Shown here: piece after piece, positions 299 to 34,083 of the stretch
Layout of the letters: every line of letters begins with the position of its first letter
Numbering within the stretch: the stretch's first letter is position 1
DNA from: Verrucomicrobiia bacterium
GTDB lineage: Bacteria > Verrucomicrobiota > Verrucomicrobiia > Palsa-1439
Assembly (NCBI GenBank): GCA_025056465.1
Contig: JANWVU010000008.1
Location: 1 to 36,751, forward strand
DNA length: 36,751 bases
Direction of reading: 5' to 3'
Program-made: the position numbers and the translations under genes
The notes under the pieces: model-generated
The model's input: the letters and a program-made list of their open reading frames with translations, nothing else
Told to the model about the DNA's origin: nothing
Database searches by the model: none

Positions 299-2523
299 TT
301 CTTCCAGATGGCCGCTCGCGCTGCGGCTTTCTCCTGCTGCAGTTTTTCTGCGCAACTGTGCGCACCTTCGATGAACAACTGCGCTTCCTCAATCAGCCGG
401 TGGGTTGCTTCAGCGGTCAACGGCGGACGTTGATCATGTCGCCGATACAAATACGCCGCCAACGACGGCGCAAATATACCGGCCAACCGCGACTTGAACT
501 CCGCCACAATTACGGCGGGCTCGTTTGGGCAATCCGGCCATCTCTCCCGCACCAAACCCAGCGCCGCTTCCAACATGGATTGATACGCCAGCTCATCGGC
601 CTTCGCAAAGTTACCGGCTTCGTGCGCCAGTTGTGCCTCGAAATTCAGCCGTTCCGCAGCGCTGAGCGCAAATTGAAGGGCGGACACCACCTCGCCGGCG
701 CACTCGCCGACGCCGATGTCGCCCATGCTGAACTCACGCGGGTCGCCCCAGTCCGAGTAGAAACTCGGGTCCTGCTCGTAGGGGGGCACCTGCATGAGGT
801 CCTCGATCATGCGTCGAGCCTCGGCTTTGCCAATGCGACCAATAAAATCACCAAAACTTTCGTTGCCCTGCCGCTCTCGCGCAAACCGTTCGATGATGCG
901 CTCGACCACCAGCGGGACGTTTCGCGCCGGTACGCTGCCAATCGCCAAACCATACCGGCCCGCGTTGTTGCGCCACTGCCCGCCGAGCAACACTTGAAAA
1001 TGCGGCACCTTGTGGTTCCCAATCGTGCGGCTGTTACCGTAAAATCCAATGTCGGCCAAATGATGTTGCCCGCACGAATTGAAGCAACCGCTCATTTTGA
1101 TTTTCAGTCCCTTCACCGCGGTATCGAGCGTGTAAAACTTATCGGCCAGTCGCGCCCGTAGCTCGCGCGCCAACCCTCGCGACGATGCAATCCCCAGTTT
1201 GCAGGTATCCGTACCGGGGCACGCCGTCATGTCGTAAATCGTACCGGCCCCCGCTTCACCCAATCCGATGTCCACCAACTCGCGATACAACGCCGGTAGG
1301 TCCGCTTCGGCTACCCAGCGGATGACGAGATTTTGTTCTACCGTCGTGCGTACATTATCGCCGCTATAGCGTCGAACGATATCCGCCAACTGCCGTGCTT
1401 GCGTCGCGGTGATGTCGCCCAGCGGACAGCTCACCGTAACCGTCACATAGCCCGGCTGACGCTGTCGGTACACATTCGTCTCCAACCACGCCTCAAACCC
1501 AGGGGGCCGCTCGCCGTTGAGCGGCTGCGGCGGTTTCAAAGGTCGTTCCGCGAACTGCTCGGCCTGCGGCAGATACGCCGTCCACCGCGGATCCGGTGCG
1601 AGCGTTTTGCGCTCTTCCGCCACCAACCGCCGAAACTCCTCAATCCCGAGTTTCTCCACCAAAAACTTAATTCGCGCGCGCGCACGGTTCTGTTTCTCGC
1701 CCAAACGTGCATACACACGCGCAATCGCCTGCGCCGTCGGCAACAGCTCTTCCACGGGCACAAACTCCGACAGCACTTTCGCTTGATACGGCACGGCACC
1801 CAGCCCGCCACCGACCAACACCTTGAACCCGCGTCGTCCATCCCGCACACGCGCGATCATTCCCAGATCATGCATGTGCGCCAACCCACACGCTTCCTCC
1901 TCGCAACCCGAAAATGCCGGTTTGAATTTGCGTCCGAAATCCTGTGTGTCGGGATGTCCGAGGAGGAAATATGCCAGCGCGCGCGCGTAGGGTGTCACAT
2001 CGAACGCCTCGGTGCGGCACACACCCGCCAGCGGGCACGCGGTCACGTTGCGCACTGCATTGCCGCACGCCTCCCGGGTGGTGATGCCCACCGCCGCCAA
2101 CCGGCGCATGATCGTGGGAGTGTCTTCGATGTGCACAAAATGCAGTTGGAAATCCTGCCGGGTTGTGATGTGCAAAATCCCATCGGAATACTCCTCAGCC
2201 ACCTCAGCCAAAACCTCGAGCTGCTTGGGATTTAATCCGCCATACGGAATCTTGATCCGTTGCATCCCGGGCGCATCCCACTCTGTGTCGGGGCCTTTCT
2301 TTAAGCCCGCTTGCGGATACGCCAATTGTTGCGTCTTGAAGCCGTCCCAGCGCTGTCCGTTGTCGTAGCGCTGACCATACACACCTCGCCGCAGCCGCGC
2401 CTCAGCAAAAACTTTTTCGTCAAGCTTGCCAAGCCGACGCAATTCCAACTGCGTCTCATAAGCGTCAATCTCGCGCCCCAGGTCCACCGGGATTTGATCC
2501 GCCAGTTTTTCCTTCCACGTCAT
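295..2523 (-). CDS. Ferredoxin-type sulfite/nitrite reductase (siroheme, 4Fe-4S)
   Basis: 742 aa ORF with duplicated sulfite reductase repeats; siroheme/4Fe4S cysteines in TACPGTDTCKLGIASSRG...KMSGCFNSCGQHHLADIGFYG. Confidence 0.93.
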   Translation of the reverse strand: MTWKEKLADQIPVDLGREIDAYETQLELRRLGKLDEKVFAEARLRRGVYGQRYDNGQRWDGFKTQQLAYPQAGLKKGPDTEWDAPGMQRIKIPYGGLNPKQLEVLAEVAEEYSDGILHITTRQDFQLHFVHIEDTPTIMRRLAAVGITTREACGNAVRNVTACPLAGVCRTEAFDVTPYARALAYFLLGHPDTQDFGRKFKPAFSGCEEEACGLAHMHDLGMIARVRDGRRGFKVLVGGGLGAVPYQAKVLSEFVPVEELLPTAQAIARVYARLGEKQNRARARIKFLVEKLGIEEFRRLVAEERKTLAPDPRWTAYLPQAEQFAERPLKPPQPLNGERPPGFEAWLETNVYRQRQPGYVTVTVSCPLGDITATQARQLADIVRRYSGDNVRTTVEQNLVIRWVAEADLPALYRELVDIGLGEAGAGTIYDMTACPGTDTCKLGIASSRGLARELRARLADKFYTLDTAVKGLKIKMSGCFNSCGQHHLADIGFYGNSRTIGNHKVPHFQVLLGGQWRNNAGRYGLAIGSVPARNVPLVVERIIERFARERQGNESFGDFIGRIGKAEARRMIEDLMQVPPYEQDPSFYSDWGDPREFSMGDIGVGECAGEVVSALQFALSAAERLNFEAQLAHEAGNFAKADELAYQSMLEAALGLVRERWPDCPNEPAVIVAEFKSRLAGIFAPSLAAYLYRRHDQRPPLTAEATHRLIEEAQLFIEGAHSCAEKLQQEKAAARAAIWKK

Positions 2524-6471: not shown

Positions 6472-6505
6472 AAAAAAATCAGCCGCCCGATGGACGATGG
6501 GCGGG
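6472..6505 (-). terminator. Putative intrinsic terminator overlapping the 3' end of the exosortase gene
   Basis: Minus strand CCGCCC-ATCGTCCATC-GGGCGG hairpin followed by CTGATTTTTTT; the TGA stop of the exosortase lies between stem and T-run. Confidence 0.6.
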
Positions 6506-7507
6506 TTTTGGAGTGCGGGCCGGCACCACTTCTTCCCGGGTCCAGCGGTAGATCAGTTCGCGGTAGTCGGTGTTCATCAACGTGCTAATGGCGAGCATGC
6601 AGAGGATGGCGAGGCTAAAAACGATGTAGCCTGAGTAATCGTGATAAAGCGGTAGTACGACATCCTGTCCGAACCCTTGCGCCACAAATGCAATCGTCAC
6701 GATGCGCGCCAGGTTGCCGATCACCGCCAGCGGAATTGCGCAGAGGAACAACAGCCATTTCTTCCACGCCCGGTCCAACGTGACGTAACCATAAATGGCC
6801 GTCAGCGCCATCAAAGCAATGAGCGACCGGATTCCGCTACATGGATCGGCCACATCCAGCGGTTCAAACGTGCCCTTGACCGAATGAATCGCCGTGCCCT
6901 GTTGCACTACCTCCAGCCCGAAAAGATTAAGGATTTTGACCGCAAACGTCGTGGTGAACATCCGCAATGGGAACGCGATGATCGGATCGAGGAAGTTCAC
7001 CGGGATCATGAAAAACAGGAACGCGCAAGCAAACCAAAGCTCCCGCGCCCAGCGCCAACCGGCCAGATACCACGTCAGACCGAAAAGCAAAATCGGCAGC
7101 GACCCGGCTAAAATGCGTGGGTTGGCGGAGCGCACCCCGACCCAATAGATAAACATCGCGCCGACGACCAACCACAGGCCTGCATTACCTGGTTGCATTG
7201 GCACCCGATGCAGCACCGTTCGCCATTTCCAAATCAAGACCCCCAGCGAAACCAACGGCACCAGATAACCATGCGCGTAGTCTTGCCCGGCACCCCAGTA
7301 GCTCGCCAGCCACCGAAACACCGACATGGCGCGCTCGTTGGCGACACAGGTTTTATCGATCCCAAACGCATACAACACCAACCCCAGCATCACGACCGCG
7401 AGAATGAGCCGTTGCCGTGACTCCGGCCGAGTGGGCCACCGCATCGTCCAATCTTCGTTTTGGCGTTCGGGAGGCAGCAGCGGTCGGAGAAACTCCGGAA
7501 GTCTCAT
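6479..7507 (-). CDS. Exosortase/archaeosortase family protein
   Basis: 342 aa multi-TM protein with the catalytic Cys (DPCSGIRSL), conserved Arg (IGNLARIV) and His (YHDYSGY). Confidence 0.9.
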   Translation of the reverse strand: MRLPEFLRPLLPPERQNEDWTMRWPTRPESRQRLILAVVMLGLVLYAFGIDKTCVANERAMSVFRWLASYWGAGQDYAHGYLVPLVSLGVLIWKWRTVLHRVPMQPGNAGLWLVVGAMFIYWVGVRSANPRILAGSLPILLFGLTWYLAGWRWARELWFACAFLFFMIPVNFLDPIIAFPLRMFTTTFAVKILNLFGLEVVQQGTAIHSVKGTFEPLDVADPCSGIRSLIALMALTAIYGYVTLDRAWKKWLLFLCAIPLAVIGNLARIVTIAFVAQGFGQDVVLPLYHDYSGYIVFSLAILCMLAISTLMNTDYRELIYRWTREEVVPARTPKPAHRPSGG

Positions 7508-15163: not shown

Positions 15164-15916
15164 TTACTCAAACAAACTCCGGTCACCGTTCGGATTGAGG
15201 CGTGCGACGTTGGCGGAGGGCCACCGGGAGTCAAGCGTACCGGCCGCCATGGTCATTGGTTCGACGTGGCCGTCCATCATCAGTACCATCGCGCGTCCAC
15301 CGTGCCGGAAGTGGGTGGTGGGAATTTCCGTGTGGAACGGGTGCACATAGTAAAACTCTTCCAACATCGGATTGCTCATCGAAGCCGGTGGTTGAATAGT
15401 GTTGATGTTGGCCGCGTCCGCAAAACAAACAACGGCCGACGGTGAATTGCTCAGTTGCGAGGGTGACTTCAAAAATTGCAACCGATTGAACCCGTACCCG
15501 CTGGTGATCTTGTCAAACTTCTGCCGCCACTTCGGCGACGTGTAGTCGTAACTGGGGCACACTTCGATGCCGTGTTGTTTGCGGTGGTAGGGGAATAGCA
15601 GGGCTCTGGTCAAATCCAGCGGTCGAGAAGCCGGTGGGCAAGCGCCGCCGCTGCAATACGGTGATTCCAACCCGAAATACCACAGCATGTCCGCCCCACC
15701 GTTCAAGGAAACTTGGTATGGGAAAAATTTCCCAAAATCGTCCACATACATGTGCGTCGCCAGTCCGAGTTGCCGCAGGTTACTGGTGCAGATTCCGCGT
15801 TGGGCGGCATACCGAGCCTGTCGCAACGCCGGCAAAAGCAAGGCCCCCAACAACGCCACAATCCCAATGGTGACGAGCAACTCAATCAGCGTAAAGGCGC
15901 GGTTGCGGGCGTTCAT
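15164..15916 (-). CDS. Prepilin-type N-terminal cleavage/methylation domain protein (H-X9-DG family)
   Basis: [61 protein letters not shown]... and [12 protein letters not shown] near the C-terminus. Confidence 0.88.
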
Positions 15917-15925
15917 GGAGAAACA

Positions 15926-15954
15926 TGGGGCGGGCCGGTTGCCGGCCCGCCCCA
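15926..15954. terminator. Strong hairpin between the PEP-CTERM gene and the prepilin-like gene
   Basis: TGGGGCGGGCCGG-TTG-CCGGCCCGCCCCA: 13-bp perfect stem, 3-nt loop. No clear T-run, so terminator versus structural element is uncertain. Confidence 0.5.
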
Positions 15955-15968
15955 CGCCGTGATTCCAC

Positions 15969-16922
15969 TCAACTCCGACGCCACCGGGTCGAAATCGCGG
16001 CCAGCGTCACGCCCAAGCCTACCAGCAAGCCGGTAGTCGGCTCTGGGATGAACTCGATCCGCTCAAACGTCACCGTCGCCACCAACGACGGATTATTGGG
16101 ATCAGTGTACCCATCTTGGTAGGCCATGATTGCAACGGTATCCACCACAAACGGATAGTTCGTGTCGTACGAGAATTGGGTATCTAGGTCGAGCGGCGGC
16201 ACACCGGTAAGCAACAGCGTCAGCGAGCCATCGCTTTGCACCTGATACATCGTCAACGACAATTCGCGAGTAAAACCATCGTAATCTAACACTGCCTCGA
16301 GAACGACGTCCTCCGGCAACTCCGTAATCAGAGGCGGCGGATTGGCTCCGAGGTCCGACGCAGGACCAAAGATCGCCGCGAAGTTGCTGAACGCATCGCC
16401 GCCCCCTTTTTGGGCACCCGCTACAACGGGCGTCAACGTCGGCCCCGGGGTGGCGGGATTCCACGTAGACAACTGCGGGAAGTAGTTAAACTCGACCGTG
16501 TGGAAGAAGTCCGAGCTGAAAAAGTTGGAGAACGACCCGGTGCGGTCGCCGCCAGTCAGCGCGCTATTGACTAGGCCAAATGCAATCTGTGCGGCGGTGT
16601 CTGTGGGTGCGCTGATCACGTTGAAACTAAACCGCACCTTCAACGTGAAGTTGTCCGATTGCGTGAACGTCGCACCGATCGGGCGATCCAGCCGCGCTGT
16701 AGGCAGTGCGGAGTTGAGGTTTACCGTCAACGACCCAGGCGCGTCGCCGCTGTATTTGGGCGCGTCGTTGTTCCACGCAAACTGACTGTTTGAGTTGTCG
16801 CCCACGCCAAACGACCACGTGGGAAACGGACTGGTTGAAAAATCTTCCACCCAGGCATGGGAGGAAGGAATAAACACCGCCGACAACGCGGCGGCCAACG
16901 CAACGGCTGTCTGACGAATCAT
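15969..16922 (-). CDS. PEP-CTERM sorting-domain secreted protein
   Basis: Signal peptide [24 protein letters not shown] and C-terminal [34 protein letters not shown] Shine-Dalgarno just before ATG at 16922. Confidence 0.88.
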
Positions 16923-16957
16923 GGTGTCTCCTTTCGAGCGAAGGTTGTTTCTGATGT

Positions 16958-17100
16958 TTGCGTCGGCCGTTATTCTGACTTCCGGCTTCAATCCTACCGG
17001 CCCGCCTTCCCCGAACACCGGGTGGCTGTTGGGCTTTCGTATCCGGTCACAGCAGCGCCACTGTCGCCGATTTTCACGGCGTTCCCTGCACCGACGCAGG
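16958..17100 (-). promoter_or_regulatory. Cobalamin (B12) riboswitch aptamer
   Basis: Minus strand: GCGTCGG...GGGAAcGCCGTGAAAATCGGCgACagtggcGCTGCTGTGA...GCCACCCGGtgttCGGGGAAGGC...gaaGCCGGAAGTCAGAATAACGGCCGACGC. Outer stem GCGTCGG/CCGACGC (17097-17091 / 16966-16960) is perfectly complementary; core blocks match the classical cobalamin riboswitch order. Confidence 0.88.
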
Positions 17101-17244
17101 TTCGTCAAAGAACTGCGGCGCTTTTACCCCTCACCACATAAAAAGCAAGAATAAATCAAGCCACGGCTGCTCGCTTAAGCAGGCGTAAGCCCCGATGGCT
17201 TCCCTGTCCGCGGTCTCGCTGATTGCGACGCAACCCGCCACGGT

Positions 17245-31807: not shown

Positions 31808-32668
31808 TCAGTAGAAGGTCTTGTCTAGGCCGGCACCGGATGCGAACCCGGCATCCACCCAGCCGATGGTCCAATCTACGCCGGAGTTGTAGGCCGTGTT
31901 GTTGATGGCGGAGTGATTGTACCGATGGAACCACTCGACACGGCCATCGCCGTAAAGGCGGTTGGCGCCGTCCAAGGGCCCGGCACCGGGAAAGCCAACG
32001 CCTTGGGAGAAAGCGACAGGCCGGGGTCCCTTGGTGTGGCCGAACAGGAAGCGCGGTTCGACCCAACCACCGTGCCAGAAAAAGATGGTGTCCGCCATCA
32101 GGAGGGTTTGGGCGGAAAGGTTGCGCCCGCTAAGCTCGAGCGGTTTGGAGCACGAACCGTCATAATCCGCGCCGCTGGGCCAACTATCCCGGCTGCCGCG
32201 GCGGTAATAGTAGGAGTACGACCAATGAAAATAACCGTAGTTTTCCCACGCGTAACTGACGGAATTGCCCATCGTAAGCGCCCAACTAGGGCAAACCCAG
32301 ACACCGTTGATGCGTCGGTTTGTCATGTCCACGCCCGCCATGTAGCGCGACATGATCCCCACGGTGAAGCGACCATTGTCGTCAGCGGGATAAGCGGTGT
32401 AAAACCAAGTGGCGACGACGCTGGGATGTAGCCCGTACCCGACGGGGGCGCCGAGATATACCACGTTGAGTAGTGCGCCATTGTAGTCGCCACCGTAACT
32501 CATCCACGCCAGGCCCCACTGCCGCAGATTTGAGGCGCAAACGGCGCGCCGGCCACGCTCTCGAGCCCTTTGCAGCGAAGGCAACAAAATCGCAGCGAGT
32601 AACACGATGATGGCGATGACCACCAACAGCTCGATCAACGTGAATCCAGCCTTGTGCCGCCGCTTCAT
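31808..32668 (-). CDS. Prepilin-type N-terminal cleavage/methylation domain protein
   Basis: [65 protein letters not shown]-terminal [12 protein letters not shown]. Confidence 0.87.
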
Positions 32669-33220
32669 GGGCAATCCCAACTACTTTCTAACACTTAGGC
32701 GAGGATTGGTCATGTTCAATTCAGCAGCCTTGTAGATTCGCACCGAAAAGTTGCAAATTTGGTGATAGGAGTACCGGCGGCGACCAACGATCGTGCGGCA
32801 ATAAGCCGAACATGTGGGGTTTCTAAAAGGCGTTGTACACGCGAAAAACCTTGCACCCCGGTAAAAGTATCCAGCGGCGATAAAACCGGCGTCGGCATAG
32901 GGCTGGGGTGATTCTTGTTGTTCGTACACTGCACGTAGTCGCCTGGGTGGCTTTTTTCATCCAGAAGCCCATCGCCACAGGCTAAGTTTTGGAAGTCAAT
33001 TTCTGTGCCGGCCAACGTGGCAGTCGTTCGTGGTCTCAGTGGCGAAACTGGTTGTAGCCGCGGCTACTGTGTAAGGTAGAAGGCGGACGTGGTGTGATGA
33101 CTCCTCCCGCCTCCTATGCCGAGTGCCGGTACAAGAGCGCCGCAAGTAATGCTTTGAGGCAACCACCACCGACCGCTCGATCAACGCAAATCCAGCGATA
33201 CACCGCCGGGGATGCGCCGG

Positions 33221-33967
33221 TTAACCGACGAATAGCCGGCGTTTCCACCACAACGCGCCACCGCCAACGAGAAGCAAGAACACCGTGCTCGGTTCAGGCA
33301 CGGCTTGCAGAATGTAGCCGGTAAAAATCGCCCCGTCGCTTGTAATGTCGGCGAACGACGCGTGAATGAACTCGATGTTATCGCCCACAATTACGCTCAT
33401 GTTGGTCAGGTAGGACCAGCCAGCGCCCGCACTGCCGCCCGTGACGATATTCGCGCCGGTGTCCAAGTTGCCCAATGGAGTGAGGCCGGCAACACGCGCA
33501 TACAACGCGCCGTTCTTGAAAATCGCCAGCACGAAACCATCGCCGGAATCACCGAGCGAGCCGTCGCCGATATAGGTCTTTCGCACCGTGCCGGTAATCA
33601 GAATTTCGCCGCTGACTTCCGATACCCAACGTCGCGCGGAGAATTCGAATGAGCCTGAGAGTGAAGTAGCATCATTGTCGGGATGTGAATGTTGCGCTCT
33701 CAAGTTTAGGTAGGGAGGACCAAATGAACCGCTGCGCTGCCAGCGCTGGTTGCCGGAGTCATACGTGCTCAGATGAGTGAAAGCGCCCCAACCTCCGCCC
33801 GAGAGCAAACCATCGTCATCCAAGCGATAACCGTAGTACCAGTTATCTTGGCCCTGTGTGCTGGAAAACTCGGCGACCGAGTCAGCGATAGTCAGGTAGG
33901 CTGCCTGTGACGTCATAGCGAGCAAACAAGCAAATGAAATTGCGACCATTAAGGAATATTTCCTCAT
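33221..33967 (-). CDS. PEP-CTERM sorting-domain secreted protein
   Basis: Signal peptide MRKYSLMVAISFACLLAMTSQAA and C-terminal VPEPSTVFLLLVGGGALWWKRRLFVG. Confidence 0.85.
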   Translation of the reverse strand: MRKYSLMVAISFACLLAMTSQAAYLTIADSVAEFSSTQGQDNWYYGYRLDDDGLLSGGGWGAFTHLSTYDSGNQRWQRSGSFGPPYLNLRAQHSHPDNDATSLSGSFEFSARRWVSEVSGEILITGTVRKTYIGDGSLGDSGDGFVLAIFKNGALYARVAGLTPLGNLDTGANIVTGGSAGAGWSYLTNMSVIVGDNIEFIHASFADITSDGAIFTGYILQAVPEPSTVFLLLVGGGALWWKRRLFVG

Positions 33968-34083
33968 ATCCACTCTCCTTCCGCCATACGACGGTTAATT
34001 CTCCCTACCTTCACCTAACAAGAAATTTATCTTACCATGGCTCGAAGTACAATTTTGGTGATTTGTATATTTGCCGCTAAAAC

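Follow-up and report, generated by a model that had tools for sequence, protein, structure and literature searches.

A two-gene operon of a Verrucomicrobiia bacterium, coding for an exported PEP-CTERM protein and a DUF1559-type prepilin behind a cobalamin riboswitch, is probably a cobamide-capture cassette which serves as an alternative to the receptor BtuB. This reading is based on the riboswitch, on the conservation of the cassette and its strict alternation with btuB, which in the family of the window genome occurs at the same slot, on BtuH-type domains which are fused or adjacent to the cassette proteins in relatives, and on a linkage to btuF and btuCD in one operon. The riboswitch itself is ordinary; the content it regulates is a new variant of a B12-acquisition locus. 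The window referred to below is the whole stretch of 36,751 nucleotides that was analysed, and it belongs to a MAG of 2.38 Mb (G000, 81% complete).

The riboswitch and the operon in the window

An earlier note, made from the sequence alone, had placed a cobalamin riboswitch on the minus strand, and the check with cmsearch gave a strong match (Table 1; the gathering score of RF00174 is 31.5 bits). It is the sole Rfam match identified by cmscan in the window and the only RF00174 match in the genome. The outer stem, described in the note as a perfect stem of 7 bp, was found to be present, but with a length of 8 bp, TGCGTCGG at 17098-17091 pairing with CCGACGCA at 16966-16959. The start codon of the PEP-CTERM gene (16922-16920) follows 25 nt after the aptamer match and 36 nt after the outer stem, and is preceded by the Shine-Dalgarno sequence AAAGGAGA at 16934-16927. 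Since this sequence could be drawn into a hairpin (Table 1), a switch-off by cobamide at the level of translation is most likely. The motif CCUUCG..C.AAAGGAG was identified in all five cassette leaders of the family, and in almost identical form in four btuB leaders. An L5-L13 kissing loop was sought by eye in the leaders, and no convincing pairing was found.

Table 1. Features of the riboswitch-controlled operon and the exosortase gene in the window
Feature	Position	Strand	Details
Cobalamin riboswitch aptamer (RF00174)	16948..17110	-	cmscan 69.1 bits, E 3.4e-15, model 1-189
Putative expression platform	16927..16944	-	CCUU 16944-16941 could pair with AAGG 16933-16930 in AAAGGAGA
317-aa secreted PEP-CTERM protein with A1 domain, L-type-lectin-like beta-sandwich	15969..16922	-	PEP-CTERM tail at residues 292-316
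DUF1559-type prepilin	15164..15955	-	likely start 15916; PF07963, PF07596, TIGR04294, TIGR02532
Exosortase, EpsH/XrtA-like, outside the operon	6479..7507	-	PF09721 E 8e-58; TIGR02602 above cut-off

The PEP-CTERM protein, also reported in the note, has a signal peptide-like N-terminus and a tail which scores 18.5 bits with TIGR02595, above the cut-off of 16; the Pfam PEP-CTERM score is 0.1 bit under its cut-off. With this C-terminal tail, made up of a PEP motif, a hydrophobic stretch, and a basic end, and an exosortase encoded in the same genome, the protein has the features of an exosortase substrate, and the exosortase listed in Table 1 is the candidate processing enzyme. To this extent the exosortase processing proposed in the note was upheld. 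As an essential feature, exosortase sorting was rejected, because the close homologues in two genomes of the family (G008 and G010) have a different C-terminal domain and lack the PEP-CTERM tail.

The note had considered the secreted protein itself to be the regulated gene. The regulated unit includes this protein, but it also contains the prepilin, which had not been mentioned. The prepilin gene lies close downstream of the PEP-CTERM gene, and in relatives no other part of the cassette is as constant; its product contains an N-terminal methylation motif and H-X9-DG, with TIGR04294 and TIGR02532 above cut-off. On the far side of the prepilin gene, glmM is located in convergent orientation. As stated in the note, no genes for B12 synthesis or for TonB-dependent transport were identified in the window, and the cassette contains no Plug or beta-barrel domains of a BtuB-type receptor.

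A second PEP-CTERM gene (33221-33973) and a second DUF1559 prepilin gene (31808-32680) are present in the window, both on the minus strand and without a riboswitch. This pair (31808-33973) adjoins sulfatases, a GH1 enzyme, and an AraC-type regulator, and its presence suggests that pairs of PEP-CTERM proteins and pilins follow a general scheme with different substrates.

Distribution of the cassette and of btuB

Homologues of the window protein have an identity, calculated for the aligned part, of 54-56% in G003, G006, and G008, 51% in G010, and 49% in G011, a genome from a different family. In the family of the window genome (f1), the cassette was identified behind the riboswitch in five genomes (G000, G003, G006, G008, G010) and btuB in four (G001, G004, G007, G009), both at the same slot beside glmM/cdaA; G006, with the cassette, and G009, with btuB, belong to one genus and differ in content. 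For the one btuB product of the family that was scanned, the best NCBIfam model was TIGR01779, with 287 bits, under the equivalog cut-off. Riboswitch leader and stem are conserved in G003, G006, G008, and G010 with nearly constant spacing, so that the complementarity which the note expected in homologous leaders is retained, and in G006, G008, and G010 the RF00174 match ends about 26 nt upstream of the A1 gene. Cassette leaders and btuB leaders have the block CCUUCGAACCAAAGGA in common, either exactly or in a closely similar form, which implies that the same regulatory leader serves two gene contents.

For a wider survey, 286 genomes of the class were searched with RF00174, of which 173 were positive. 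Among the matches listed, about one to two regions per genus were taken, with the stronger RF00174 matches chosen, resulting in 105 sites from 94 Verrucomicrobiia genomes, and the downstream ORFs were scanned with profiles made mainly from the family of the window. A pilin cassette was identified at 58 sites and btuB at 28; 19 sites had neither and none had both. Likewise, in none of the 94 genomes were both kinds of site present (Fisher p 2.9e-13 for the exclusivity of cassette and btuB, phylogeny being ignored). Most of the pilin-cassette sites (53/58) contain A1 and/or a second domain designated FAD, a label which is derived from the motif FADSVV and is unrelated to the flavin cofactor. A1 occurs at 40 sites, always together with the pilin (40/40), and FAD likewise at 40, comprising 35 with the pilin and four with btuB. 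Cassettes are distributed over 25 families and btuB over 14, four families having both kinds in different genomes. As a control, the opposite and upstream strands of the same regions, at twice the length, gave seven pilin matches, one btuB match, and no A1 or FAD match.

In the reverse direction, 44 full-length A1 homologues were collected from the 286 genomes without reference to riboswitches, and 39 of them are located 26-1811 nt downstream of an RF00174 match, a favourable outcome of the check on homologues suggested in the note; for the other five, no B12 riboswitch was detectable. An A1 homologue in G087 (L178:3061-4194, minus strand) has no RF00174 match, and a SAM riboswitch is located nearby (1182-1298, minus strand). 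A degenerate riboswitch may precede this gene, since the start of the ORF, SGNPARIGEGCATVTGY, resembles a translated cobalamin aptamer core. Weak matches to the A4 profile at positions of about 250-331 were set aside, because they are limited to a C-terminal domain which is common in these genomes. On a Planctomycetota contig from outside the class (L028, labelled Planctomycetaceae), riboswitch, pilin, A1, and FAD follow one another.

In some cassettes, the surface proteins are large (L120:5240-7507, minus strand; L110:1548-3647 and L090:1111-3300, plus strand) and contain an extra N-terminal domain with the pattern SLDDIQ.W.G.G.NRA.L.IEW...WGYRWNG; no NCBIfam match was obtained for the L120 protein, the one scanned.

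Domains of the cassette proteins and the supply of B12

The FAD profile matched BtuG1 (8BLW, E 2.3e-7) and BtuH2 (7BIZ, E 0.006) in HMMER, at the C-terminal domain shared by both, and this shared region has been described as the B12-binding domain in the BtuH paper (PMC8941943). When the FAD model (pLDDT 86.5, pTM 0.83) was compared with the whole PDB by Foldseek, BtuG1 and BtuH2 (three chains, ranks 1-3) were the only matches at E<0.001. Since sequence and structure searches agree, FAD is regarded as a BtuH/BtuG1-type domain. Fusions of FAD with A1 were identified in seven surveyed genomes (G003, G045, G053, G059, G119, G210, G223). In G003, the first gene behind the riboswitch is a single ORF (L017:9178-11055, plus strand) coding for the N-terminal BtuH-like FAD domain, a PEP-CTERM segment in the middle of the protein, and A1. 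The operon of G011 has the order riboswitch-A1-pilin-btuF-btuCD. Both the BtuH-type domains fused or adjacent in relatives and this homologous operon with btuF and btuCD back the cobamide capture that the note had offered as a possibility. A FAD-type, BtuH-like protein also adjoins btuB in four Verrucomicrobiia operons (L135:3571-4452, L140:3490-4407, L157:2993-3895, L163:3367-4275).

The genome of the window contains no FAD/BtuH domain. An identity of the window protein with BtuH was rejected, because the protein gave no match to the FAD profile and has a lectin-like fold; it represents the A1 partner. An identity with DUF4465/BtuJ was rejected as well, since the window protein gave no match at E<=0.001 and the relatives scanned gave none at E<=1.

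In 16 genomes examined for B12 metabolism, B12-binding domains were present throughout, and zero to three TP-methylase matches were found in each. This number is too low for corrin synthesis, so that these bacteria are probably B12 scavengers. The window genome has no TP-methylase (corrin-ring) genes and codes for B12-binding enzymes, including a MetH-sized ORF of 1174 aa; judged from its gene content, the bacterium presumably cannot make B12 and would depend on an external supply. BtuC (FecCD) was not found in the window genome. Strong FecCD matches were obtained in G002, G006, G009, and G011 only, and most cassette genomes have no BtuC or only a doubtful one. Several B12-dependent genomes, among them G223, G001, and G007, contain btuB or btuF and no convincing BtuC (FecCD).

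The cassette might have an accessory role, in which it only concentrates B12 at the surface and an unlinked, riboswitch-free, BtuB-like TonB receptor carries out the transport. Rather unlikely as it is, this is a variant of the preferred explanation, and its probability overlaps with that of the latter. It would agree with the TonB receptors, at least one each, which many cassette genomes retain, and with the FAD domains next to btuB in four genomes. Of 20 TonB-receptor ORFs that were fetched, 16 match the btuB profile, with low scores of 59-177 bits which nevertheless overlap with those of the weakest riboswitch-linked BtuBs. However, no Plug domain was identified in 13 cassette genomes from nine families (91-97% complete), and the single Plug protein encoded in the window genome gave no match to the btuB profile, although BtuB could be missing from this assembly, since the genome is 81% complete.

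The AF2 model of the window protein (pLDDT 77.5, pTM 0.79) shows a ConA-like beta-sandwich which Foldseek places with the L-type lectin fold: the top PDB matches are legume lectins, with E values of about 1e-8 and TM-scores by target of up to 0.57, and the A1 profile has a marginal sequence similarity to them (E 0.025). A1 thus resembles lectins and none of the B12 binders known. With this fold and a prepilin as partner, the operon might serve a B12-responsive adhesion, A1 being a genuine lectin, with the pilin as a fibre for adhesion or scaffolding and no binding of B12, so that low B12 would signal the cell to attach itself to polysaccharide, to algae, or to neighbours which produce B12; the other pair of PEP-CTERM protein and pilin in the window, beside sulfatases, would suit such a role. 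This is improbable in view of the association of A1 with BtuH-type B12-binding domains, btuF, and btuCD and of the strict alternation with btuB; in addition, the Glu of the lectin metal motif is invariant and is kept in the best lectin alignments, but the later Asp and His are not evidently aligned. That the riboswitch is a relic or a chance neighbour of proteins unrelated to B12, for which the lack of a B12 gene in the window might speak, is hardly credible and already contradicted by the survey, with a conserved leader at nearly constant spacing, 39 of 44 A1 homologues behind RF00174, and the cassette kept in 25 families and found also on a contig of Planctomycetota.

Proposed role and comparison with known systems

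The cassette is thus likely to serve the acquisition of cobamides. At plentiful B12, the riboswitch would repress the A1-pilin operon, most likely at the level of translation by binding of cobamide. Under B12 limitation, the exported, presumably exosortase-anchored beta-sandwich protein and its dedicated pseudopilin would be made, and the pair would capture cobamides at the cell surface, where it is predicted to be displayed, or in the periplasm, taking the place that BtuB, a TonB-dependent receptor, has in relatives; the pilin may help the cobamide across the outer membrane. That A1 itself binds the cobamide is possible, at somewhat below even chance. A functional replacement of BtuB, without TonB, is put forward more tentatively, and the same applies to a TonB-independent route through the outer membrane, by which the exosortase-anchored receptor would pass cobamides to the pseudopilin to be carried inward. 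If true, this route would occur widely among Verrucomicrobiia and also in Planctomycetota, and it would have replaced BtuB, or have been replaced by it, behind the same riboswitch.

Most of the surveyed riboswitch loci lack BtuB though the Verrucomicrobiia examined presumably depend on external B12, and the cassette provides a concrete candidate for the capture step. PEP-CTERM proteins and DUF1559 pilins without a known purpose are numerous in the PVC group, and for one of them the cassette provides a substrate that can be tested. In the literature searched, which covered few subscription journals, no paper was found that describes the cassette, links BtuH to Verrucomicrobia, or relevantly connects a cobalamin riboswitch with PEP-CTERM. 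A mode of B12 capture that had not been described before is indicated by the cassette.

Among micronutrient systems, ZepA has been described as a PEP-CTERM exoprotein for zinc acquisition (PMC10957091). In ZepA, a PEP-CTERM protein for micronutrient acquisition is combined with control by a regulator of the matching micronutrient, as would be the case for the window protein; ligand and regulator (Zur) differ, and the likeness rests on the role. We know of no pilin acting with ZepA. Legume L-type lectins have the predicted fold in common with the window protein, but the best structural matches have an identity of about 10-16% to it, the metal site is not evidently complete, and their ligands are glycans, whereas the context of A1 is B12.

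BtuJ1 and BtuJ2 are B12-binding DUF4465 proteins (PMC13398666); they resemble the window protein as beta-jellyroll surface proteins in B12 loci, but DUF4465 was not matched in the window protein or the relatives scanned. The cobamide-transport loci of Bacteroides consist of BtuB-BtuG-BtuH, with surface proteins for B12 capture (PMC8941943, PMC10404256). The cassette would resemble them in capture, and related cassettes contain, in FAD, a homologue of the domain which binds B12 in BtuH2 and BtuG1. BtuH-type domains, described originally from gut Bacteroidota (and few Firmicutes), thus have a wider distribution. In contrast to these loci, the cassette has neither BtuB nor a lipoprotein anchor, but an exosortase anchor and a pseudopilin, and the window protein itself lacks the BtuH domain. 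With BtuB-BtuF-BtuCD of E. coli, the cassette shares an outer-membrane step under the control of a B12 riboswitch, and in G011 also the following btuF and btuCD; in place of the TonB-dependent beta-barrel, it has a surface protein and a pilin.
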